From Planctomycetota bacterium (lineage in GTDB: Bacteria; Planctomycetota; Phycisphaerae; Sedimentisphaerales; Anaerobacaceae), in NCBI GenBank assembly GCA_012719085.1, contig JAAYBA010000425.1, positions 1-32,926 on the forward strand: DNA of 32,926 nucleotides, in the 5' to 3' direction. Made by a program: the position numbers and the translations under genes. The notes under the pieces were generated by a model, which was given only the letters and a program-made list of their open reading frames with translations, made no database searches and was not told where the DNA came from. This document shows, piece by piece, positions 3,279 to 29,981 of the stretch (position 1 is its first letter; the number at the start of each line of letters is the position of its first letter).

Positions 3279-4136
3279 GTGCCCGCAACCATGGGAAACC
3301 ACGCAGTCAATCTGCAACAGGCATCCGGCGGCGGCCGACCGGCGGCGCGCGTGCTCGCCGTCACCAGCGGCAAGGGCGGCGTCGGCAAGACGAACATCGC
3401 CACCAACCTGGCATTGTGCATGGCCGCCACGGAGAAACGCGTGCTTCTGCTCGACGCCGATATCTCGCTGGGCAATCTGGATCTGCTGTTGAACGTGCGA
3501 AGCAAGTACAACATCTCGCACGTGATCAACGGCTCCAAGCGGATTGAGCAGATCATCCTGCCCGGACCACAGGGCCTTCAAGTGATTTGCGGGGCTTCCG
3601 GTCTGGACCAACTGGCCGACATCAGCGAAACGGAGCAGCATCGGCTGCTTGAACACCTCTCCGGCCTGCAATACGGCAGTGACACCATTGTGATCGATAC
3701 GGCAGCGGGGATCTCGAACTCGGTCGTCAGTTTCTGTCTTGCCGCCGATCATGTGCTCGTGGTCACGACGCCCGAGGCCACCGCCATGACCGACGCCTAT
3801 GGGATGATCAAGGTCTTGGTCCGAAAACGCTATGAAGGCCCGATAAGCGTGGTGGTCAACATGGCGCACAGTCTGGCCGAAGGAAAGAGAATCTATCAGC
3901 GTCTGGCCGACGTCGCGGCCCGATTTCTTCAGGCCGACCTCTATTACGCCGGGGTCTTGCTCAAGGACGAACGCCTCTGTGCGGCCGTACGCTTGCGCCA
4001 GCCCGTCGTATTGGCCTATCCCAAGAGCCAGATCGCCTCTTCGTTCAACGCCTTGGCGACCCGCCTGGGGGGAATCGATTGCAGTAACCGGGGCAATGGG
4101 AGTTTTTTCCGGAGAGTGTTTCGGTGGCTGACCTAA
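3279..4136 (+). CDS. flhG: FlhG/MinD-like ATPase controlling flagellar number
   Basis: SIMIBI-class P-loop ATPase (FlhG, also called FleN or YlxH) that normally limits flagellar number and placement with the GTPase FlhF. Of 285 residues, the deviant Walker A motif is SGKGGVGKT (30-38), followed by LLLDADISLGNLDLLL (Walker A' type) and DTIVIDTAAGIS (switch II/Walker B region). The C-terminal FFRRVFRWL may be a short amphipathic membrane helix. The N-terminal DQAxxLR motif that activates FlhF is not recognisable; only NLQQAS is present. The start is GTG 3279 (AGAGG close by) or ATG 3291. It sits between flgB and fliA on the same strand. FlhF is not in the window, so pairing with it is assumed, not seen. 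A generic MinD is the alternative. Confidence 0.8.
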   Translation: MPATMGNHAVNLQQASGGGRPAARVLAVTSGKGGVGKTNIATNLALCMAATEKRVLLLDADISLGNLDLLLNVRSKYNISHVINGSKRIEQIILPGPQGLQVICGASGLDQLADISETEQHRLLEHLSGLQYGSDTIVIDTAAGISNSVVSFCLAADHVLVVTTPEATAMTDAYGMIKVLVRKRYEGPISVVVNMAHSLAEGKRIYQRLADVAARFLQADLYYAGVLLKDERLCAAVRLRQPVVLAYPKSQIASSFNALATRLGGIDCSNRGNGSFFRRVFRWLT

Positions 4137-4160
4137 AGTCTTGGCCCAGGCGGCCGATAA
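4134..4160 (+). promoter_or_regulatory. Sigma-28 (FliA) promoter upstream of fliA
   Basis: TAAA at 4134-4137, exactly 15 nt, then GCCGATAA at 4153-4160. This is a perfect match to the known sigma-28 consensus TAAA-N15-GCCGATAA. It overlaps the flhG stop codon (TAA 4134-4136). The predicted start is near 4168, giving a leader of about 95 nt before the fliA GTG. It implies positive autoregulation of fliA. Confidence 0.75.
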
Positions 4161-4261
4161 AGGATCTTGTGGGCATCGCTCTGTCCGAAGCAGGATCGTG
4201 AGCGGGCAAGACCGGCATCGCACAAAATGGATTGGGCTGCGGCACGTAACGGAGACGACTT

Positions 4262-5059
4262 GTGAAGACACAGACAGCGGCGAAGACGGACAAGAAGCTC
4301 GCAATCGATGAAGTATGGGAGCGTTTCCACGACAGTCGCCAGGACTGCTACCGCAACCTGCTCATGGAGCATTATCGGGACCTTGTCCGGCACGCCGCCG
4401 AGCGACTCCACAGTAAACTCCCGGACAAAGTCGAGATGGACGACCTGGTCAGTGCCGGCACGTTCGGTCTGATGGACGCCATCGACGCATACGACCCCGC
4501 GCGGGGCGTGAAGTTCGAGACCTATTGCGCTCCGCGAATCAAGGGATCGATCCTCGACGAATTGCGCAGCATGGACTGGGTCCCCCGCCTGGTGCGTGCC
4601 CGCGCCCATCAGTTGGCCAAAGCCACCCACGCCCTGGAGATGCACCTGGGTCGCAAGCCCGACGAACATGAGCTGGCCGAGGAGTTGAACATGGACATGG
4701 ATGAGTTCATTCGCCTCCAGCGCGACGCCAATGCCACCAGCCTCGTCTCCCTGAGCACCAAGTGCGGCGACGGGGATGGAGAGAGGGACGTCTGTGAGAT
4801 CGATGTCATCAAGGACAATCGCAGCGAGGACCCGCTCATCGAGGCCCAGAAACGCGACTTGAAGAGCCTTCTGACCAAGGGCCTGACTCGCGCCGAGCGG
4901 CTGATCATCGTGCTGTATTACTACGAAGAGATGACGATGAAGGAAATCGGCGCGACGCTGGATCTGTCCGAGTCGCGGGTTTCTCAGATGCACTCATCGA
5001 TCCTCGCCCGACTCAAGGCCCAGATGAACACCCGCAAGAAGGAATTCGCCGTCGAGTAG
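4262..5059 (+). CDS. fliA: RNA polymerase sigma factor FliA (sigma-28)
   Basis: Sigma-70 family factor that directs RNA polymerase to late flagellar and chemotaxis promoters. The 265-residue protein has region 2 (about 30-105; MDDLVSAGTFGLMDAIDAYDP and VKFETYCAPRIKGSILDELR are the core-binding and -10-recognition segments), region 3 (about 110-165, after DWVPRLVRARA) and region 4 (about 205-255; MTMKEIGATLDLSESRVSQMHSSI is the -35-binding HTH). The GTG at 4262 follows GGAGA by 6 nt. It lies 125 nt after flhG. An exact sigma-28 promoter in that gap suggests the factor feeds its own expression. FlgM, the anti-sigma factor, is not visible nearby. The FliA assignment rests on the region 2-3-4 layout without region 1 and on the flagellar context. 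Confidence 0.92.
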   Translation: MKTQTAAKTDKKLAIDEVWERFHDSRQDCYRNLLMEHYRDLVRHAAERLHSKLPDKVEMDDLVSAGTFGLMDAIDAYDPARGVKFETYCAPRIKGSILDELRSMDWVPRLVRARAHQLAKATHALEMHLGRKPDEHELAEELNMDMDEFIRLQRDANATSLVSLSTKCGDGDGERDVCEIDVIKDNRSEDPLIEAQKRDLKSLLTKGLTRAERLIIVLYYYEEMTMKEIGATLDLSESRVSQMHSSILARLKAQMNTRKKEFAVE

Positions 5060-11354: not shown

Positions 11355-12806
11355 TCATGGGAACCGCCATGTCTCCGACGGCTTGTGTGCGGCCTTCATC
11401 AGCGCGACCATCTGCGCGACGATCTCGGGGTTTCGATCGGCCACGTTCGTAGTCTCGCCCAGATCGGTTCGCAGATCGTACAACTCGATCGGCCCGTCCG
11501 GGTCGGCCGCCACGTTCAGACGCACACCCTTCCAGAAGCCCATGCGGACGGCCTGCTTCTTGCCCTGTTCGTGGAACTCCCAGTAGAGGTATCGGTGCTT
11601 CCTCTGGTACACCGGCTTGCCCAGGAGCGTGGGCAGGAAGGAAAACCCGTCCGCGTCGTCCGGCGGGATCGCCCCGGCCAGATCGCAGCATGTGGGCAGA
11701 AGATCCCAAAAGGCGCAGACGTGATCGGTGCCCGAGCCGGCGGCGATCCTCCCCGGCCAGCGTGCGATCAGCGGCACGCGGATTCCGCCTTCGTAGAGAT
11801 CACGCTTGATGCCGCGCAGCGGACCGCTGCTGTGGAAGAACGCCGGATCGGCGCCCCCCTCGGCGTGCGGACCGTTGTCGCTGGAAAACAACACGAGCGT
11901 ATCGGCGTCGATACCGAGTTCCTCGAGCTTATCGAGCAGGCGGCCCACGTCGCCGTCCATCCGCGTAATCATCGCGGCGTGGCCTTTCTGCGGCTCGGGC
12001 CAATCCTCGTCGGCATACGGCCCGTAGGACGGCACCTCCATCCCCGCCCGGCCCGCCTCATTGTTGGCGTGCGGAATGGTCAACGCCAGATACAGGAAGA
12101 AAGGCACCTGGCGGTTTCGCTCGATGAATTGCAGCGCCTCGTCCGCAATCAGGTCGTGGGAGTATTCCACCTTCTCCGTCGCCACGCCCGCGCCGTCGTC
12201 TCGATCGCCTGCGACCTTGTTGGCCAGCGGCACACGCTGATCGTTGCGATAGAGAAACTCCGGATAGTAATTGTGCGCGTGCCTCTGGCAAAGATATCCG
12301 AAGAAGTAGTCGAAGCCTTGGTTATTGGGCGCCCCGGTGCTTGCCGGCCCGCCGAGTCCCCACTTGCCGATCAAGCCCGTCCGATAGCCGCGACCGGCCA
12401 GCAGACGAGGCACGGTGACAGCGCCCGTGGGCAGAGGCAACTGCCCCATCGGCTTGGCCTCCTTGTTGCCGCGTACGTAGGCGTGCCCGGTATGCAGACC
12501 CGTCATCAACGAACAGCGCGACGGCGCGCAGACGGTGCTGCCGGCATACGCATCGGTGAAGAGCATGCCCTCGGCCGCCATCCGGTCGATGTTCGGGGTC
12601 TGGATCGCCTGCTGGCCGTAACAGCCCAGGTCGCCATAACCGAGATCATCGACCAGAATGAAGATGATATTCGGCTGTCCGGGCCCGGCCAGCCGCTTCG
12701 ACCCGCTGGTCCGACAGCCGCCAGACACGAACACGGAGGCGGCGGCCAATCCAGCCGCATGGAGAAAACCCCGTCGCGTCCAACTCTGGTTGCCTGGCTC
12801 GTTCAT
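11355..12806 (-). CDS. Tat-exported sulfatase lipoprotein (arylsulfatase A family)
   Basis: Hydrolyses sulfate esters, probably on sulfated polysaccharide or glycan, outside the cytoplasm. Of 483 residues, the N-terminus has the twin-arginine motif TRRGFL (10-15) and a lipobox-like VSGGC (C31). NIIFILVDDLGYGDLGCYG carries the metal-binding Asp pair. CAPSR (93-97) is the sulfatase signature whose Cys is converted to formylglycine. GKWGLGG and FSSDNGPH are further conserved metal and active-site blocks. ATG 12806 follows GGAGG by 8 nt, correcting the track start (12968). It is 52 nt downstream of the M16 pair and probably shares their transcript. The maturase is not in the window. Substrate cannot be read from the sequence. 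Confidence 0.93.
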   Translation of the reverse strand: MNEPGNQSWTRRGFLHAAGLAAASVFVSGGCRTSGSKRLAGPGQPNIIFILVDDLGYGDLGCYGQQAIQTPNIDRMAAEGMLFTDAYAGSTVCAPSRCSLMTGLHTGHAYVRGNKEAKPMGQLPLPTGAVTVPRLLAGRGYRTGLIGKWGLGGPASTGAPNNQGFDYFFGYLCQRHAHNYYPEFLYRNDQRVPLANKVAGDRDDGAGVATEKVEYSHDLIADEALQFIERNRQVPFFLYLALTIPHANNEAGRAGMEVPSYGPYADEDWPEPQKGHAAMITRMDGDVGRLLDKLEELGIDADTLVLFSSDNGPHAEGGADPAFFHSSGPLRGIKRDLYEGGIRVPLIARWPGRIAAGSGTDHVCAFWDLLPTCCDLAGAIPPDDADGFSFLPTLLGKPVYQRKHRYLYWEFHEQGKKQAVRMGFWKGVRLNVAADPDGPIELYDLRTDLGETTNVADRNPEIVAQMVALMKAAHKPSETWRFP

Positions 12807-12858
12807 GCGATGTTCCTCCAACCAATGCGTTGCGACAATCGAGAGAAATCCCCGTGTG

Positions 12859-14313
12859 TCATCGGACCGGCGGCGGGATGGTGACATCGATCGAACGGAC
12901 TTCGCCCAACGTCGCAAGAGGCCGATCGAAGTCTTCCGGCCGCCCCACCACCAGAATCTGCAGGGCATCGGGCCTCAGATGCGCGCGGGCGGCCCTGAAG
13001 ATATCGGCCCTCGTGACCTTCTCGATCCGTTCTCGGGTCTGCTGCAGGAAGTCGGGCGGATAGCCGTAGAACTCATAGGTCATCAGGCGACTGATGATCT
13101 GGCCCGTGCTGTCAAAGTTGAACACGAACGAGTTCAGGTAGCTGTCCTTGGCCAGCTCCAGTTCCTCGTCGGTCACTTCCTCCTGGGTCATTCTCCGAGC
13201 CTCCTCGCAGATGGCCTCGATCGCGTGGACGGTGCTCTCGGACTTCGTCTGGCAACCCATGGAGAAGACGCCGGGGCGGTCGTAACGTGTGGCGTACGTC
13301 CCGAAGACCGAATAGGCCAGACCCTGCCGCGAACGCACGTTCTTGAACAATCGCCCGGTGAAGCCGCCGCCGAGGATGTGGTTCATCAGCGTCAGCGCCG
13401 CATAGTCCGGGTCGTTCATCCGCCCGCCGATGTGGCCGATGTAGATGTTCGACTGGTTGAGGTCCCCTCGGGCCACGAGGTTCACCGTCGCCCGCCACGT
13501 GTAATCCACCTCGGGTGCGGGCGGCAGGTCCAGATCGATCTTCGCCCAACCGTCGAAGGCCTTCTCGATCCGAGCGATCATCTCCTGCGTGTCGAAATCG
13601 CCCCAAACGGCCAGCATCATGTTGTTGGGCCCGAAGAACCGCCTGTGAAACGCCACCAGGTCGTCGCGGGTGATGCTGTCGATGGTTGCGTACTCGGTGT
13701 GCCGGGCATACACGCTTTCGGGACCGTAGATCAGCTTGTCGAACTCGCGCGATGCAATGGAGCGGGGCGAGTCGTTGCGCCGGGCGATGGCGCTGCGGTG
13801 CTGCATCTTGGCCAGCTCGATCTTGTCCTGGCGGAACGCCGGATGCATCAGCACGTCGGCCAGAATCCCCAGCCCCTTGCCGATATCCTCCTTGAGCACC
13901 GACACCGAGACATATCCCGAATCCTGCCCGATGCCCGTTTCGACCGAAGCGGCAATCTGCTCCAGTTCGTCGTCCAGTTCGTCTCCGGTCCTGCTCGTCG
14001 TTCCGCCGGTGCGCATCACCTCACCGGTGATGTCGGCCAGGCCCACCTTGTCGGCCGGCTCGTAGATGGACCCCACCCGAATCCGGCCGGACAGGGAGAT
14101 CAGCGGCAGCTCATGGTCCTCCAGCAGGAGCAACCGCATCCCGTTGGACAGGGTGACACGCTGCACCTCCGGCACGGCCACGTCGCGAAGGCTCGGGTAT
14201 TTCAGTTGCGTGTGGTCCGTCGCCCGCTGCGCCGTCACCGGCGAGACTGTCAGGCAGAACACCGCCACCGCACAGAGAACCGGTGACAGATGGCATACTC
14301 GTTGGCTTCTCAT
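12859..14313 (-). CDS. M16-family peptidase homologue lacking the zinc motif
   Basis: Exported 484-residue member of the pitrilysin/insulinase family. A signal peptide (cleavage near VTAQ) is followed by two M16 half-domains. Where active members have HxxEH, this one reads D-I-T-G-E (94-98, in KVGLADITGEVMRTGGT), so both His and the catalytic Glu are gone. The C-terminal M16 block is intact (NHILGGGFTGRLFKNVRSRQGLAYSVFG), the conserved R/Y substrate-contact region. This is the pattern of the non-catalytic subunit in two-chain M16 enzymes. It starts 16 nt after the catalytic M16 gene, behind GGGGAG, which strongly suggests a heterodimer. It acts in the periplasm or at the surface. Confidence 0.9.
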   Translation of the reverse strand: MRSQRVCHLSPVLCAVAVFCLTVSPVTAQRATDHTQLKYPSLRDVAVPEVQRVTLSNGMRLLLLEDHELPLISLSGRIRVGSIYEPADKVGLADITGEVMRTGGTTSRTGDELDDELEQIAASVETGIGQDSGYVSVSVLKEDIGKGLGILADVLMHPAFRQDKIELAKMQHRSAIARRNDSPRSIASREFDKLIYGPESVYARHTEYATIDSITRDDLVAFHRRFFGPNNMMLAVWGDFDTQEMIARIEKAFDGWAKIDLDLPPAPEVDYTWRATVNLVARGDLNQSNIYIGHIGGRMNDPDYAALTLMNHILGGGFTGRLFKNVRSRQGLAYSVFGTYATRYDRPGVFSMGCQTKSESTVHAIEAICEEARRMTQEEVTDEELELAKDSYLNSFVFNFDSTGQIISRLMTYEFYGYPPDFLQQTRERIEKVTRADIFRAARAHLRPDALQILVVGRPEDFDRPLATLGEVRSIDVTIPPPVR

Positions 14314-14329
14314 ATTCCCGCTCCCCTAT

Positions 14330-15868
14330 TCAGGATTCGCTTTCGCCGGCCGTGGTTTCGATGATGCCGACCGTTCGGTTCTTCGTCGTAAAACAGGCCC
14401 GGGCGACCCGCTGGATATCCTCGGCGGTGACCCGATCGATCCGTTCGAGTTGTTGGAAGAGGTTTCGCCAATCGCCCGTCAGCACCTCGTAGAATGTCAA
14501 CTGCTCGGCCAGGCCCGAGTTGGAGTCGAGTTGCCGAATCAGAGCCGCGCGGGCCCGTGTTTTGGCCTTTTGCAGCTCCTGCTCGCTGACCGGCTCGTTC
14601 CGCAGCCTATCGATCTCGTCGTAGATCGCCCGTGTGCACTCCTGGTTTGTATGGCCTCTGGCCGGCATGGCGTAGAAAAGGAACAGCCCAGGGTACTTCT
14701 GACCGGGCATGCCCTGGAAGCCGGAGGTGGCCATCGCGATCCGCTTGTCCTTGACGAGACTGCGATACAGACGCGATGTCCGCCCGCTGCCCATAATGTC
14801 CGTGATGGCGTCGAAGACCGCGTTGTCCTCGTGCTGGATGCTCGGCTTGTGGTATCCGATCAGAACGAAGGGCTGGGACGGATCCTCGACGACGACGTGG
14901 CGCTCGCCCGGCTGCGGCGGCTCGACCGTCACGACCGGCCCCGGCGGCGGACGATGGGGAATCCGTCCGAAATACTCACGGGCCAGCGTCTTGACGCGAT
15001 CCGGATCGACGTCGCCGACGATGGCCACCGTCAGGTTGCTCGGCACATAGTGCGTTCGAAAGAACGCCTCGGCCTGCGCCCGGGTCACCGCCTCGATGTC
15101 GCTCATGTGCCCGATGACCGGCTGGCCGTAGGGATGAGCCTTGTACGCCGCCGCAAGGAATTCCTCCAGCAGTTTGCCGACCGGCTGGGTCTCCGTGCGG
15201 AGCCGGCGCTCTTCCATGACCACATCCTTCTCGCTGTAGAACTCGCGCAGAACGGGATTGAGGAACCGGTCCGACTCCATCAGCATCCACAGTTCGAGCT
15301 TGTTGGCCGGCAGACTCACGAAGTAGACCGTGTAGTCGGAACTGGTCCCGGCGTTGAGTCCCACCCCGCCGGCCCGCTTGAGGATCTCGTCGAACTCATC
15401 GTGCACGAGATACTGTTGGGCCTGCTCCTGCGCCTCGGCAAGCCGCCTTTGCAGCTCAGCCAGTTTCTGCTCGTCGGCCGGACCACCCTTGAGCCGCTCA
15501 GCCCGGATCGCCTCGAAGATTTCGTCGATCTTCGCCAGCGCCCTGGCCTCGGCCTCGGGGTCTCTGGTGCCAATCGTTCGAGTGCCCTTGAAGGCCATGT
15601 GCTCGAACAGATGCGCCAAGCCCGTCAGGCCCGTGACTTCGTCCACAGCGCCGACGTTGGCGTGGGTGAAGCACGTCACGACCGGCGCATCGGGCCGCCG
15701 AAGCACGATGAACTTCAGCCCGTTGTCCAGTGTGAATTCGCTCACGCGCGACTCGAACTCCGCCAGGTCCTGGGCGATACCCGACGGCCCCGTCGCCAGC
15801 AACACGACCAGCAACGGCAATACGGCCGAGCCAACCGCCCGCCGCCAACCTGCATATACTCGTCCCAT
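14330..15868 (-). CDS. Catalytic M16 zinc metallopeptidase
   Basis: Exported zinc peptidase of 512 residues. After a signal peptide (cleavage near GIAQ), the inverted zinc motif HLFEH (86-90) is intact and the third ligand is probably E213 in YSEKDVVMEE. The spacing between them, about 122 residues, exceeds the usual 75 or so because of a charged helical insertion (about 105-155, KLAELQRRLAEAQEQAQQY) predicted as coiled coil. The C-terminal half has DIMGSGRTSRLYRSLVKDKR, typical of M16. ATG 15868 has AGGAG 7 nt upstream; the track start at 15907 does not. It is followed after 16 nt by its inactive partner and preceded by the M14 gene 70 nt away. It probably degrades peptides or misfolded fragments outside the cytoplasm. 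Confidence 0.93.
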   Translation of the reverse strand: MGRVYAGWRRAVGSAVLPLLVVLLATGPSGIAQDLAEFESRVSEFTLDNGLKFIVLRRPDAPVVTCFTHANVGAVDEVTGLTGLAHLFEHMAFKGTRTIGTRDPEAEARALAKIDEIFEAIRAERLKGGPADEQKLAELQRRLAEAQEQAQQYLVHDEFDEILKRAGGVGLNAGTSSDYTVYFVSLPANKLELWMLMESDRFLNPVLREFYSEKDVVMEERRLRTETQPVGKLLEEFLAAAYKAHPYGQPVIGHMSDIEAVTRAQAEAFFRTHYVPSNLTVAIVGDVDPDRVKTLAREYFGRIPHRPPPGPVVTVEPPQPGERHVVVEDPSQPFVLIGYHKPSIQHEDNAVFDAITDIMGSGRTSRLYRSLVKDKRIAMATSGFQGMPGQKYPGLFLFYAMPARGHTNQECTRAIYDEIDRLRNEPVSEQELQKAKTRARAALIRQLDSNSGLAEQLTFYEVLTGDWRNLFQQLERIDRVTAEDIQRVARACFTTKNRTVGIIETTAGESES

Positions 15869-15938
15869 CTCACTGCTCCTCAAACCGCATCGTTTCAAGA
15901 TCGTCATGCGCAGATGTCATTTAACCGCCGATCGCCGC

Positions 15939-24250: not shown

Positions 24251-25570
24251 ATGCAGCGCAAACTGACCCGCCGTACCTTCCTCCGCAACGCCGCCTGGGC
24301 CGGCTCAAGCCTGGTCATCCTGTCCAACAGTCGGCTGGTGCGAGGGACCTTGGCCAACAGCAAGCTCAACATCGCCGGGATCGGGATCGGCGGTCGCGGC
24401 GCCGCCAACATCCAGGGCGTGGCGAGCGAGAACCTCGTCGCCCTCTGTGACGTCGATGAGAAGCACGCGGCGGCGACGTTCGAGCAACATCCCGGCGCCA
24501 AGCGGTTCAAGGATTTCCGCAAGATGCTCGACGCGGTGCACAACCAGATCGACGCGGTCGTGATCGGCACGCCGGACCATACGCACGCCCCGGCCGGGGT
24601 GATGGCCATGAAGCTCGGCAAACACTGCTACTGTGAGAAACCGCTGACCCACAGCGTCTACGAGGCCCGGCTGATGGCGAATATCGCCCGCGAGAAGGGG
24701 CTCGTGACACAGATGGGCACGCAGATCCACGCCGAGAACAACTACCGCCGCGCCGTCGAGCTGGTGCAAAGCAACGCCATCGGCCCCGTGCGCGAGGTTC
24801 ACGTCTGGCTGGGGGCCAACTTCGACGGTCCGCCCAAGCCCACCGACATGAGCCAGCCGAACGCGCCGACCGACCATGTGCCCGTGCCGGCAGGTCTCGA
24901 CTGGGACCTCTGGCTCGGACCGGCGCCGTACCGCTTCTACAGCCCCGCCTATGCACCGTTCCACTGGCGATACTGGTGGAACTTCGCCAACGGGCAATTG
25001 GGCGACTTCTTCTGCCACTATTGCGATCTGGCCTTCTGGGCACTGAAGCTGCGGCACCCGACGACGGTCGAGGCCGAAGGACCCGTCCATCCCGAGAGCA
25101 CCGCCAAATGGACCATCGCACGACAGGAATACCCCGCTCGCGGCGACCTTCCGCCTGTGACGCTGACCTGGTATAACGGCGGCGGCTATCCAACGCTGGT
25201 CAAGGAACGGAACGTGCCGCAGTGGTCCAGTGGCGTGCTGTTTGTCGGCAGCAAGGGCATGCTGCTGGCCGACTACGGCCGGCATCAATTGCTGCCCGAG
25301 GCAGAGTTCGCGGGTTTCCAGCCGCCCGATCCATTCATTGCGAACTCCATCGGCCATCATCGCGAATGGATCGAGGCCTGCAAGTCGGGTGGGCCGACCA
25401 CATGCAATTTCGACTACTCCGGCGCGCTGACCGAGGCGGCCCTGCTGTGCAACGTGGCACTGCGCACGGGCGAGAAGCTCACATGGGACGCCGCCAACCT
25501 CAAGGCCATCGGCTGCCCGCAGGCGGATTCGTATATTCAGCGTCCCTACCGACGAGGATGGACGCTCTAA
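24251..25570 (+). CDS. Tat-exported Gfo/Idh/MocA family oxidoreductase
   Basis: NAD(P)-dependent sugar oxidoreductase-like protein of 439 residues. The N-terminus is a twin-arginine signal (LTRRTFLRNAAWAG, RR at 7-8), so it is exported folded, probably with its cofactor. The Rossmann domain opens with NIAGIGIGGRGAAN, and CEKPLTHS has the conserved catalytic Lys of the EKP motif. The C-terminal half (WDLWLGPAP, HWRYWWNFANGQLGDFFCHYCDLAFWAL) is the planctomycete-type Gfo/Idh extension. AAGGAG lies 9 nt before ATG 24251. It is 28 nt upstream of the GH/PL gene and probably co-transcribed, which suggests carbohydrate processing outside the cytoplasm. Substrate unknown. Confidence 0.93.
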   Translation: MQRKLTRRTFLRNAAWAGSSLVILSNSRLVRGTLANSKLNIAGIGIGGRGAANIQGVASENLVALCDVDEKHAAATFEQHPGAKRFKDFRKMLDAVHNQIDAVVIGTPDHTHAPAGVMAMKLGKHCYCEKPLTHSVYEARLMANIAREKGLVTQMGTQIHAENNYRRAVELVQSNAIGPVREVHVWLGANFDGPPKPTDMSQPNAPTDHVPVPAGLDWDLWLGPAPYRFYSPAYAPFHWRYWWNFANGQLGDFFCHYCDLAFWALKLRHPTTVEAEGPVHPESTAKWTIARQEYPARGDLPPVTLTWYNGGGYPTLVKERNVPQWSSGVLFVGSKGMLLADYGRHQLLPEAEFAGFQPPDPFIANSIGHHREWIEACKSGGPTTCNFDYSGALTEAALLCNVALRTGEKLTWDAANLKAIGCPQADSYIQRPYRRGWTL

Positions 25571-25598
25571 GAGGCAGCCGCAGCAGGAGACCGACGAG

Positions 25599-27767
25599 AT
25601 GAACGAACGACGGAGGACGCGAACCGGCCCCGTGTTGGGATGGGTGTTTTTGGCAATGGCGATTCTCTCGTCGGGTTGGGGCCGCGCGGCGCGGGCGGCG
25701 GCGTTGGCGCCGATCGCCCTGCACCCGGAGAACCCCCACTACTTTCTCTGGCGGGACAAGCCCACCATTCTGACCACCTCGGCCGAACACTACGGCGCGG
25801 TGCTGAATCGCGCGTTCGACTATGTCAAGTACCTCGACACGCTGCAAGCCAACGGATTCAACATGACGCGAACCTTCAGCGGCGCCTACTGCGAGCCGCC
25901 GGGCGCGTTCAACATCGAGAACAACACGCTCGCGCCGGCCAAGGGCGAACTGCTCTGTCCGTGGGCGCGCAGCGACACGCCGGGCTATGCCAACGGAGGC
26001 AACAAGTTCGACCTGACACAATGGGAGCCGGAGTACTTCCGGCGTCTGACCGACTTCGTCGCCCAGGCGGGCCGACGCGGCATCGTGGTGGAGATGGTTC
26101 TGTTCTGTCCGTTCTACGAAGACGGCATGTGGGAACTGAGCCCGATGAACGCCCGCAACAACGTCAATGACGTCGGGACTATGCCGCGCACGGAGGTCTA
26201 CACGCTCAAGCACCCCAAGCTGCTGGCGATCCAGGAGGCGATGGTCCGCAGAATCGTCGAGGCCTTGGAAGGCTTCGACAACCTCTACTACGAGATCTGC
26301 AACGAGCCGTACTTCGGCGGCGTCACCATGGACTGGCAGCACCATATCGCCGAGACCATCGCCGGCGCCGAATCGAAGTTCCAGCACAAGCACCTGATCG
26401 CGCAGAACATCGCCAACAAGGCCCAAGTCGTCGAGAACCCGAGCCCTCACGTGTCGATCTTCAACTTCCACTACGCCAAGCCGCCGGTCGCCGTGGCCCA
26501 GAACTACCACTGGGACCGCGCGATCGGCGACGATGAGACCGGGTTCGCCGGCGACGACCGGGTCAAACCGTATCGGCTCGAAGGGTGGGACTTCATCATC
26601 GCCGGCGGAGCCGTCTTCAACAATCAGGATTACTCCTTCGCCGTCGGCCATGAAGACGGCTCGGCCAGGATCAACGCGCCGGGCGGCGGCGGTCCCGAAC
26701 TCTGGCAGCAGTTGGCCATCCTTCGGGACTTCATCAACGGCTTCGATTTCATCCGGATGCGCCCGGACGATTCGGTCCTCACCTCGGATCTGCCCGACGG
26801 CACCACGGCGCGGGCGCTCGTGCAACCGAGCGTCGCCTATGCGATTTACGTCAACGGAAACAATGCAACCAGACTGACCGTCGATCTGCCCAGCGGCGCC
26901 TACAAGGCTGAATGGATCGACACCAAGACGGGGCAGATCGCGGACACCCAATCGTTCACACACGACAGTGGCCTCCATCCGCTCGATGTGCCGCCGTACA
27001 CCGACGACATCGCCCTGCGCATCGTCAGCGCCCAGCGGCCGCGACAGGGATTGCTGTTCGAAAGCGACTTCGAAACCGAAGACCTCAAGGGCTGGAAGAC
27101 GTCGGGCAACGCCCCGCGTGTCACCGGCTCCCTCGCCCGGGCCGGCCGGCAGGCCATGCAGACCTCGCTCGATCGCGACAGAGACAAGGTTTCGTACCGC
27201 ACGGAGGTCAGCGGCCCCGGCGCCGAGGTCGGCAAGGAGTACTGGTACGGCTTCAGCATCCTGTTGCCCGAAGATTACCAGCCCGACGGGATATGGGAGA
27301 TCGTGGCCCAGTGGCACGGCGTCCCCGACTTCGACATCGGCGAAGACTGGCGCAATCCCGTCATGGCGCTGTCTACGACCGGCGGCCGGTGGGGCTGGGT
27401 CAGCCGCTGGGACGCCAAACGCAACACGTTCGAAAGCGGGACTCGCCAGTACGGCGGAACGCAGCACTACGATCTTGGCCCCTACCGCAAAGGTGTCTGG
27501 ACCGACTGGGTCGTCCACGTCAAGTGGTCGTATGGACAGGACGGGTTTCTGCAAGTCTGGAGAGACGGCGACAAGGTGATCGATCAGGACGGGCCCAACG
27601 CGTTCAACGACGAGCGCGGCCCGTATTTCAAGATGGGCCTCTACAAGGGTTGGGCCGATGCCGATCGGCCCAGCGACGCCGTGAGCCGGCGCATCCTCTA
27701 CCATGACGAGTTCCGCATGGGCGGATCGAACGCCGGCTACGACGATGTTGCGCCCGGACCACGGTGA
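25599..27767 (+). CDS. Secreted glycoside hydrolase / polysaccharide lyase-like fusion
   Basis: Exported 722-residue enzyme with a signal peptide (hydrophobic about 12-34). About residues 40-390 look like a clan-A (beta/alpha)8 hydrolase: YYEICNEPYFGG holds the acid/base Glu (E236) and GDDETGF the probable nucleophile (E313). About 400-475 is a small beta domain (GAYKAEWIDTKTGQI), like the collagen-binding-type domain that often follows such hydrolases. About 485-715 resembles heparin-lyase-like polysaccharide lyases (PF14099 type): RTEVSGPGAEVGKEYWYGFSI, IWEIVAQWHGVPD, YFKMGLYKGW. Two degrading activities on one chain suggest a glycosaminoglycan- or uronic-acid-like substrate, but this is inference. 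It follows the Gfo/Idh gene by 28 nt and overlaps mnmA by 4 nt. Confidence 0.82.
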   Translation: MNERRRTRTGPVLGWVFLAMAILSSGWGRAARAAALAPIALHPENPHYFLWRDKPTILTTSAEHYGAVLNRAFDYVKYLDTLQANGFNMTRTFSGAYCEPPGAFNIENNTLAPAKGELLCPWARSDTPGYANGGNKFDLTQWEPEYFRRLTDFVAQAGRRGIVVEMVLFCPFYEDGMWELSPMNARNNVNDVGTMPRTEVYTLKHPKLLAIQEAMVRRIVEALEGFDNLYYEICNEPYFGGVTMDWQHHIAETIAGAESKFQHKHLIAQNIANKAQVVENPSPHVSIFNFHYAKPPVAVAQNYHWDRAIGDDETGFAGDDRVKPYRLEGWDFIIAGGAVFNNQDYSFAVGHEDGSARINAPGGGGPELWQQLAILRDFINGFDFIRMRPDDSVLTSDLPDGTTARALVQPSVAYAIYVNGNNATRLTVDLPSGAYKAEWIDTKTGQIADTQSFTHDSGLHPLDVPPYTDDIALRIVSAQRPRQGLLFESDFETEDLKGWKTSGNAPRVTGSLARAGRQAMQTSLDRDRDKVSYRTEVSGPGAEVGKEYWYGFSILLPEDYQPDGIWEIVAQWHGVPDFDIGEDWRNPVMALSTTGGRWGWVSRWDAKRNTFESGTRQYGGTQHYDLGPYRKGVWTDWVVHVKWSYGQDGFLQVWRDGDKVIDQDGPNAFNDERGPYFKMGLYKGWADADRPSDAVSRRILYHDEFRMGGSNAGYDDVAPGPR

Positions 27768-28819
27768 CGGCCGAAAGACACAACGTGGTCGTCGCCCTTA
27801 GCGGGGGCGTCGATAGTTCGGTCGCCGCCGCCCTGCTGCTCGAGGCGGGCCACCGTGTCCAGGGCGTGTTCATGATCACGTGCGAGCAGGGCCGCCACGC
27901 CCAGGCGGACGCCGAAGAGGTGGCCCGCCGCCTCGGCATCCCGTTGACCGTGCTGGATCTGCGCGGCGACTTCGTGCCGATTCTCGGCTACTTCTTCGAC
28001 GAATACGCCAAGGCCCGCACGCCCAATCCCTGCGTAATGTGCAATCGCCTTGTCAAGTTCGGCAAGCTCTGGGATTTCGCCCGGCAGACGGACGCCGACT
28101 TCCTCGCGACCGGCCACTATGCCAGAGTGCTTGAGCGTGACGGAGAGATGGGCCTCTACGAAGGCGCGAACCCGGCGAAGGATCAGTCCTATGCGCTGTC
28201 GATGATCCGCCGCAACGTGCTCGCCCATGTGCTGCTGCCAATAGGCGAACATTCCAAGGACCAGACCCGCCAGATCGCCGGACGACTGGCCCTGGGCACC
28301 GAGGCCAAGGCCGAGTCACAGGAGATCTGCTTCATCCCCGACGACGACTACGTCGCCTTGCTCGAACATCGCCACCCCGAGTTGGTCCAACAAGGCCAGA
28401 TCGTTGACAGCTCCGGCAAGGTTCTCGGCGCGCACGAGGGCATCCACCGTTTCACCATCGGCCAGCGGCGCGGCCTGCGCGTGGCGATGGGCGAGCCGTT
28501 CTACGTTATCGGTCTCGACGCTCGCAGCAACACAGTGATCCTGGGCCCAAAAGAAGAGGTGATGCATCGCCGCCTGGTCGCCGACGCGGTGAACTGGCTG
28601 GTCGAACCGCCGCAATCGGCCTTCCGTGCGTCCGTTAAGATCCGCTATAACGACCGAGGCAAACCGGCGACGGTGCATCCGACCGAGGACACCGTGCAAG
28701 TGGAATTCGACGAACCCAACATGGCCATCACACCGGGGCAACTCGCCGTCTTCTATTTGGACGAAGGTCCCCTGCGACGCGCCGCCGGCGCCGCCTGGAT
28801 CGAAAGAGCCGATGAATAG
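27764..28819 (+). CDS. mnmA: tRNA-specific 2-thiouridylase MnmA
   Basis: Puts sulfur on the wobble uridine (s2U34) of tRNAs for Lys, Glu and Gln, using ATP and persulfide sulfur. The 351-residue protein has the PP-loop LSGGVDSS (12-19), the first catalytic Cys C93 (NPCVMCNRLVKFG), the second C189 (ESQEICFIPDDDY), and the C-terminal domains (HRFTIGQRRGL, EVMHRRLVADAVNW). The GTG start overlaps the GH/PL stop codon as GTGA (27764-27767), so translation is probably coupled. This puts an essential-type tRNA gene on the same message as a secreted carbohydrate enzyme. No separate promoter was seen in the end of the upstream gene. Confidence 0.96.
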   Translation: MTAERHNVVVALSGGVDSSVAAALLLEAGHRVQGVFMITCEQGRHAQADAEEVARRLGIPLTVLDLRGDFVPILGYFFDEYAKARTPNPCVMCNRLVKFGKLWDFARQTDADFLATGHYARVLERDGEMGLYEGANPAKDQSYALSMIRRNVLAHVLLPIGEHSKDQTRQIAGRLALGTEAKAESQEICFIPDDDYVALLEHRHPELVQQGQIVDSSGKVLGAHEGIHRFTIGQRRGLRVAMGEPFYVIGLDARSNTVILGPKEEVMHRRLVADAVNWLVEPPQSAFRASVKIRYNDRGKPATVHPTEDTVQVEFDEPNMAITPGQLAVFYLDEGPLRRAAGAAWIERADE

Positions 28820-28861
28820 AACCAAGCCAGGCTGTATTCACACACATGAGGCGATCGAGTC

Positions 28862-28890
28862 TTGCCGCCAGACGGAAGATGCGATATAAT
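28862..28890 (+). promoter_or_regulatory. Promoter of the GT9 gene
   Basis: TTGCCG (28862-28867), 17-nt spacer, TATAAT (28885-28890), a perfect -10 box. The ATG at 28902 is 11 nt past it, so the leader would be only about 4-6 nt. The TTG start at 28890 used by the track falls inside the -10 box. Confidence 0.7.
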
Positions 28891-28901
28891 TGGTGGTCAT
28901 C

Positions 28902-29981
28902 ATGGTGCAGACCAGTAACGACATTCTGAGTTTGCTCGAAGCCGAGGGCGCCCAGGCGGCCAAGGAGGCCCAACGAGGCGTCATTCTCCAGCCCGGGGCC
29001 TTGGGTGACTGTATCCTGACGCTGCCGCTGGTCAAGGTGATGACCGAAGCGCTCGGGCTCGGCGGCGTCGACCTCGTCGGACACAGCGAGTACATCGGCA
29101 TCCTGCCGGGCCGCAGTTGCGTCAGCAGCATCCGTTCGATCGATTCGACCGAGTTGCACCGCCTGTTCGTCGAACCGGCCAAGTTTGATCTGGCCGACCG
29201 CGACCCCCTCATCAACACGTTCGCCGACTACGCATGGATCGTCACATTCCTCGGAGAGCCGGACGGACCCTTCGAGCAGAACCTGATCTTCACGGCCAAT
29301 TGCAGCCACAGCGCCGAGATCATCACCCTGTCGCTCAAGCCGCCTCACGACGCCGCCCAGCACGTCGCCGAGCACTACGTCCGCCAGTTCGCCCGCCAGA
29401 GCGGCCTGCCGCAGAACCGCGCCAGCATCGCCGCGACCGAACCGCTGATCCGTGTCACCGACGCCGATCGCGAACGAGGACTCGAACTGCTCGAACAAAG
29501 GGACATCGATCCGTCCAAGCGACTGGTGGTGATCCACCCTGGCAGCGGCGGACGCCACAAATGCTGGCATATCAGCAATTTTCTCCGCATCGCGCAAACA
29601 CTTCGCGACGACGGAATCGAGGTCCTGTTCCTGCTCGGACCGGCGGAGGTGGAACGCTTTGAGAGCATCGACAAGGCGCGTCTGTATGGCGCCGCCCGGT
29701 GCATTGCACATCTTTCGCTCAGCCAGGTCGTCGATCTCCTGGCCTGCACGGATGCCGTCGTGGGCAATGACAGCGGCGTCACACACCTTGCCGCCGGGAT
29801 GGGATTGCGTACGCTTGCCCTGTTCGGTCCGACCGATCCGGCCCTGTACAAACCCATCGGGCCGGCGGTCACGGTCCTTCGGGACCCGCACGATCGATTC
29901 ACCCGGCAGCCCAATCCCGATCTCCAGAAGGCCGTCGTCGAGGCCATTCTCGCGCCCCCTTCCGATGGCCCCATGCACTAA
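28902..29981 (+). CDS. GT9 glycosyltransferase (heptosyltransferase family)
   Basis: Cytoplasmic GT-B transferase of the ADP-heptose:LPS heptosyltransferase family, 359 residues, likely adding a sugar to lipopolysaccharide core or another glycan. RGVILQPGALGDCILTLPLV near the N-terminus is the GT9 opening (GDxxLTLP). The C-terminal half has VVIHPGSGGRHKCWHISNFLRIA and VGNDSGVTHLAAGMGLRTLALFGPTDP, the family's nucleotide-sugar site. No TM segment or signal is present. ATG 28902 is chosen because upstream starts lie in the promoter; GGTGG gives a poor ribosome site, and the transcript is almost leaderless. Donor and acceptor cannot be told. It stands alone between mnmA and the LamG gene. Confidence 0.9.
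   Translation: MVQTSNDILSLLEAEGAQAAKEAQRGVILQPGALGDCILTLPLVKVMTEALGLGGVDLVGHSEYIGILPGRSCVSSIRSIDSTELHRLFVEPAKFDLADRDPLINTFADYAWIVTFLGEPDGPFEQNLIFTANCSHSAEIITLSLKPPHDAAQHVAEHYVRQFARQSGLPQNRASIAATEPLIRVTDADRERGLELLEQRDIDPSKRLVVIHPGSGGRHKCWHISNFLRIAQTLRDDGIEVLFLLGPAEVERFESIDKARLYGAARCIAHLSLSQVVDLLACTDAVVGNDSGVTHLAAGMGLRTLALFGPTDPALYKPIGPAVTVLRDPHDRFTRQPNPDLQKAVVEAILAPPSDGPMH

Follow-up and report, generated by a model that had tools for sequence, protein, structure and literature searches.

Does a single exported protein of a planctomycete combine a glycoside hydrolase (GH) with a polysaccharide lyase (PL), and does it share a pathway with the oxidoreductase encoded next to it? The question is raised by two same-strand open reading frames (ORFs) in a 32,926-nt stretch of DNA, referred to here as the window, which comprises positions 1 to 32,926 of contig JAAYBA010000425.1 of the Planctomycetota bacterium assembly GCA_012719085.1 (family Anaerobacaceae), a metagenome-assembled genome (MAG) in 658 contigs. 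The first ORF, 24251–25570(+), encodes an oxidoreductase of 439 amino acids (aa); the second, 25599–27767(+), encodes a 722-aa GH–PL fusion protein, and 28 bp lie between them. We consider it fairly probable that the 722-aa product is an exported, carbohydrate-active enzyme whose two domains, a clan-A hydrolase and a PF14099 lyase, were joined by one old fusion, with the lyase as an accessory and the oxidoreductase as a later arrival. The domains, catalytic residues, their conservation, co-inheritance and losses, and the shallow pairing with the oxidoreductase were computed; from them we infer export, both activities, the substrate and any link to the oxidoreductase.

The initial annotation had described both gene products as exported, and export-type signals were found on both, a twin-arginine start on the oxidoreductase and a predicted Sec-type signal peptide on the fusion protein. 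The latter spans residues ~1–35 (25599..25703, plus strand) and has a basic N-terminus, a hydrophobic core and an AxA motif, with a helix at residues 13–25 in the structure model. Export of the 722-aa protein is therefore a prediction from its N-terminal sequence.

The GH domain (residues 36–482, 25704..27044) was delimited by the model, Foldseek matches and comparison with related loci, and consists of a (beta/alpha)8 barrel followed by a C-terminal beta domain. The model of the full protein (pLDDT 84.5, pTM 0.70) matched 4n0r, the GH140 apiosidase/DUF4038 group (apiosidases 5msy and 8t9w; also 3kzs and 4qfu) and a GH5 mannanase, with Foldseek E-values of 1e-18 to 1e-14 and ~12–15% identity; PslG was also among the structural matches. 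The likeness to 4n0r and the GH140/DUF4038 proteins lies in the barrel with its C-terminal beta domain, that is, in the overall fold, and identity to them is 14–15%. A sequence profile search returned the same neighbourhood (4n0r and DUF4038/apiosidase proteins), weakly. In the predicted structure, Asn235-Glu236 of an NEP motif follows strand 229–233 and Glu313 of a DETGF motif ends strand 308–314, which by our own count are barrel strands 4 and 7, respectively. This arrangement, together with the clan-A structural matches, is that of clan GH-A. Both glutamates proposed initially were thus recovered: Glu236 (26304..26306), the predicted acid/base, and Glu313 (26535..26537), the predicted nucleophile, are invariant across an alignment of 53 relatives. 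Judged from the model, the domain is a clan-A-type and probably retaining glycosidase.

A genome-wide scan found relatives of the GH domain at 551 loci, and architectures were counted in the best 80 of these, which came from Planctomycetota, Verrucomicrobiota, Armatimonadota, Omnitrophota, Acidobacteriota and others. The genome of the window itself carries a second copy of the family (L141; G000:C467:9328-11435; 52% identity), located beside a further, distant GH copy.

The assignment of the second half to PF14099 was borne out at residues 491–706 (27069..27716), where the Pfam profile matched over its full length (1–210) with an E-value of 5.3e-42 and 144.5 bits against a gathering cut-off of 29.9. 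A model of the PL part alone (pLDDT 86.1, pTM 0.88) is a beta-jelly roll whose best Foldseek match was the PL20 glucuronan lyase 2zzj (E 3.9e-15, TM-scores 0.81/0.82), followed by PL13 heparin lyase I and then by PL7, PL14 and other alginate lyases. The glucuronan lyase is alike in fold and size, but it is fungal, unfused to a GH and ~21% identical. Heparin lyase I (3imn, 3ina) has ~370 aa versus 240 here (TM-scores 0.65/0.43, 15–16% identity), so that similarity does not extend over its full length.

The catalytic residues of the glucuronan lyase TrGL are listed as Arg51, His53, Glu55, Gln91, Tyr200 and Asp206 (PMC7601620). By profile alignment, Glu536, Gln571 and Tyr682 agree with TrGL Glu55, Gln91 and Tyr200, and Arg534 of a YRTE motif (27198..27200) takes the position of TrGL His53. 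Gln571-Trp572-His573 (QWH, 27309..27317) and Tyr682 (27642..27644, in YFKMGLY) also correspond to the QWHG and YFKxGxY motifs of heparin lyase I, with His573 on the catalytic His151 and Tyr682 on Tyr357; PDB 3ina is the H151A mutant. Asp703 (27705..27707) aligns to Asp222 of glucuronan lyase, a calcium ligand (PMC3764139). The PL domain is thus a catalytic-looking PF14099 member by profile and model, with the PL20 fold and the PL13 histidine–tyrosine pair and a full fit to neither family. It probably cleaves a glycan containing uronic acid by beta-elimination, as residue alignment and model suggest. A lyase domain without catalytic residues had been named as the outcome that would overturn the annotation; by profile alignment and model, the window protein keeps most of them. 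Tandem PF14099 domains occur in open frames of ~680–730 aa in another planctomycete genome (L026, G381:C1:1749166-1753544).

The presence of hydrolase and lyase on one chain, as first annotated, holds beyond the window: the same architecture was found at 15 of the 80 independent loci, the window not counted, and the other 65 showed no PL domain. Within the window's family, 18 of 89 genomes carried the fusion, 16 of them matched over nearly the full length, and all six genomes of the window's genus had it. An assembly or frame artefact, for which the origin of the window in a MAG of 658 contigs could speak, has a negligible chance of being the explanation, as no fewer than 15 independent assemblies, single-contig chromosomes among them (L062, CP070782; G551; G574), show the identical junction with open frames. 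A chimera was rejected on the same grounds. Close plasmid-borne relatives were not found, the best match being 37% identical for the GH part and ~27–35% for the PL part, the latter to proteins named 'heparin lyase I family'.

In the GH tree, all fusions are confined to the same supported half. The PL tree has the same main groups, and the GH and PL distance matrices correlate (Mantel r 0.76, reached in 0 of 5000 permutations). In two unfused relatives, L065 and L086, a decayed start of the PL domain can still be read 3' of the GH stop (L065 9393-9470 and L086 1409-1520): it reads 'QAMPSVSDFEN' in L065 and 'QALLFRSDFESQSFKG*' in L086, compared with 'QGLLFESDFETEDLKGW'. L065 groups with L066 and L067, the two fusions without His573, which suggests that the lyase decayed before it was lost in this group. 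Because the two halves were inherited together and remnants persist in two unfused relatives, the simplest history is a single ancient fusion, after which the PL half was lost repeatedly. Repeated independent fusions were disfavoured for the same reasons, namely the shared main splits, the correlated distances and the two sets of remnants. The hydrolase was retained through several losses of the lyase half, which makes the lyase an accessory activity. Between the window and L061, the ratio of nonsynonymous to synonymous substitution rates (dN/dS) was ~0.087 for the PL part, 0.107 for the GH part and 0.116 for the oxidoreductase.

Several observations weigh against an exported enzyme with two activities. 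The repeated losses mean that GH and PL are not obligate partners. No Pfam family scored above its cut-off for the GH part (DUF6298, 17.6 bits against 28.1; Apiosidase PF13204, 17.4 against 26.5; Cellulase PF00150, 13.7 against 23.5), so the domain falls short of both GH140 and GH5 by gathering score and is a remote relative of these families outside any Pfam family. The TrGL catalytic set is matched in part: besides the change of His53 to Arg534, Arg51 corresponds to Ser532 and the region of Asp206 is variable, neither Arg51 nor Asp206 being conserved. His573 is kept in 14 of the 16 fusions and replaced by Gln in L066 and L067. Genes for uronate catabolism or transport were not found beside the fusion gene.

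Some of these points would also fit a different role for the PF14099 domain, as a lyase-derived carbohydrate-binding module that anchors the protein to an acidic glycan and leaves the hydrolase as the sole catalyst. The domain is dispensable, given the 65 of 80 loci with the GH alone and the decay in L065 and L086, L066 and L067 lack the histidine of QWH, and no convincing lyase activity was seen for Cip1, a relative by structure (PMC3764139). Nevertheless, none of the 16 fusions departs from Arg534, Glu536, Gln571, Tyr682 or Asp703, the PL part has the dN/dS given above, and retention of aligned catalytic residues is not what one would expect of a domain that only binds. We therefore regard a binding module as rather unlikely and favour a lyase that is active alongside the hydrolase.

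For such a two-domain enzyme, conserved residues and models suggest the following course. Once the protein is outside, its GH domain would use Glu236 and Glu313 to hydrolyse glycosidic bonds, probably with retention of configuration. In the PL domain, Gln571 and Arg534 would neutralise the uronate carboxylate, and Tyr682 and His573 would remove the proton at C5 and donate one to the leaving oxygen, yielding an unsaturated uronate. Within an acidic polysaccharide, the lyase would act on the uronate-linked stretches, and the hydrolase would cut neutral linkages in the same or an associated polymer.

Natural fusions of a GH with a PL are already known; what is new here is the combination of domains. 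In the CelAly-type GH5+PL31 fusion of marine Flavobacteriaceae, both activities have been demonstrated and two polymers, cellulose and alginate, are cut (PMC13235733). The initial proposal of one polymer cut by two mechanisms finds no support in this precedent, the one characterised GH+PL fusion considered. In both systems a polysaccharide lyase and a clan-A GH are naturally joined in one chain, and the fusion is conserved across relatives. They differ in the GH and PL families and in phylum, and the type IX secretion system C-terminal domain and binding modules of CelAly were not found in the 722-aa protein. With a GH under the PF00150 cut-off and a PL of PF14099, the window protein is analogous to CelAly in layout only.

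The oxidoreductase upstream (24251..25570, plus strand) begins MQRKLTRRTFLRNAAWAG..., a twin-arginine start in which the motif TRRTFLR and a hydrophobic stretch make up a signal of approximate extent 24251..24343; the match to TIGR01409 was weak (13.7 bits against a cut-off of 16.7). The protein belongs to the Gfo/Idh/MocA family, with a PF01408 match of 66.2 bits against 24 (E 5.5e-18) and an EKP motif (CEKPLTH). Over its full length it matched PDB 8tdf (E 7e-77) and NF058561, the model for the BT_2158 glycoside 3-dehydrogenase (E 2e-107); the latter match reached 359.8 bits and the equivalog cut-off is 750. By sequence, the protein resembles BT2158-type glycoside 3-dehydrogenases, its nearest characterised kin, at a score under the model cut-off. 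An export-type signal is common to both; the difference lies in the score and in the PF06439 partner, which is not beside the window gene. BT2158, of the BT2157–BT2160 pathway (PMC11300592, PMC9007349), has been described as a glycoside 3-dehydrogenase of the periplasm (PMC11300592), so extracytoplasmic sugar oxidation is not new. The description of the locus as an uncommon pathway layout could not be upheld, as Gfo/Idh proteins of this kind are abundant (61 matches in the window's genome) and extracytoplasmic 3-oxidation of sugars has already been described for BT2158.

Could the oxidoreductase and the fusion protein nevertheless form one pathway, in which the exported Gfo/Idh protein oxidises the sugars released by the fusion, probably at C3? 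The two genes share a strand across the 28-bp gap, and the pair is retained in four of six congeners (G000, G549, G550 and G532) at 90–98% identity. In G167, an oxidoreductase with 41% identity lies directly upstream of an unfused GH, although it is less similar to the window protein than are paralogs within the window's own genome. The periplasmic location of BT2158 would also fit, as would the window genome's 28 matches to the 3-keto-disaccharide hydrolase family PF06439. The pair is, however, absent from the same-genus genomes G551 and G552 and from the remaining fusion loci, so the pair is confined to part of one genus, and the lack of conservation that had been named initially as a refuting outcome is seen outside the genus. 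No PF06439 gene stands beside the window pair. Because one genome holds 61 oxidoreductase and 28 PF06439 matches, adjacency carries little weight; ~0.1–0.5 chance adjacencies were expected among the loci (the upper figure being an estimate), compared with ~2 independent ones seen. A scan of the putative operon for promoters and terminators gave a site count not above that of shuffled sequence, so the argument for co-transcription, which had been proposed, is one of spacing only. Pathway coupling between fusion and oxidoreductase is weakly supported, and we judge a single pathway improbable. On the reading we favour, the oxidoreductase gene was inserted upstream later, in part of one genus. Elsewhere in the same genome (G000:C350:10-6991), three complete Gfo/Idh paralogs and a partial one stand in tandem, 40–51% identical to the window protein, with two PF06439 domains after them; this array is a better candidate for a 3-keto-glycoside cluster than the pair in the window.

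Downstream, the stop of the fusion gene overlaps the start of mnmA (tRNA 2-thiouridylase, 27764..28819, plus strand; PF03054, 6e-57) in the sequence GTGA at 27764–27767, and mnmA is followed by a heptosyltransferase-like gene of glycosyltransferase family 9 (GT9; 28890..29981, plus strand; PF01075, 1.4e-28), conserved downstream in 25 loci. Among loci with at least 4 kb of downstream sequence, the half of the GH tree that contains the fusions had a co-directional GT9 downstream in 21 of 31, versus 0 of 27 for the other half, and many loci of the former half have lpxD and lpxI after GT9. The order mnmA-GT9-lpxD-lpxI also occurs in genomes of the order that lack the GH gene, from which it follows that the GH(-PL) gene joined an older block. 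This block (window 27764-29981; L062-L092) is often accompanied by a TPR-transglutaminase gene upstream, a MATE transporter gene, a PF06439 gene, and an FG-GAP protein gene downstream.

This neighbourhood could indicate that the fusion acts on the cell's own envelope polysaccharide, in the homeostasis or turnover of lipopolysaccharide or exopolysaccharide and not in foraging. The gene lies upstream of GT9, lpxD and lpxI on the same strand in one clade, it overlaps mnmA, and PslG is among its structural matches; AlgL sets a precedent of a lyase within a biosynthetic operon, for alginate (PMC8829089). However, many genomes of the order carry the block but not the GH, which means that the position may be an inherited accident, and unrelated genes (MATE, TPR-transglutaminase, FG-GAP) sit in the same block. 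The lipid A context, once considered as proof of an envelope function, was downgraded accordingly. We hold a role in the cell's own envelope to be quite unlikely, and its specific form, an enzyme of envelope maintenance, encoded beside heptosyltransferase and lipid A genes, whose single chain uses both hydrolysis and beta-elimination on the cell's own uronate-containing surface polysaccharide, to be more doubtful still.

Elsewhere, the window encodes, at 3279-5059, a ParA/MinD-like ATPase (3279-4136) with a sigma-70-family factor (4262-5059) after it and, on the minus strand at 11355-15907, a sulfatase and two M16 peptidases.

The exported hydrolase–lyase that we favour adds a new pairing of GH and PL to the few natural fusions of this type that we found described, in a host group that is largely uncultured. 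The 16 fused proteins and their many unfused orthologs, two of them with a decayed lyase, form a natural series in which to study what a hydrolase gains from a lyase. The hydrolase family itself, which has no Pfam assignment and extends across Planctomycetota, Verrucomicrobiota, Armatimonadota and others, is a candidate for characterisation. Were the envelope-maintenance role to prove true, retention or loss of the lyase half would depend on whether uronate is present in the cell's own glycan.

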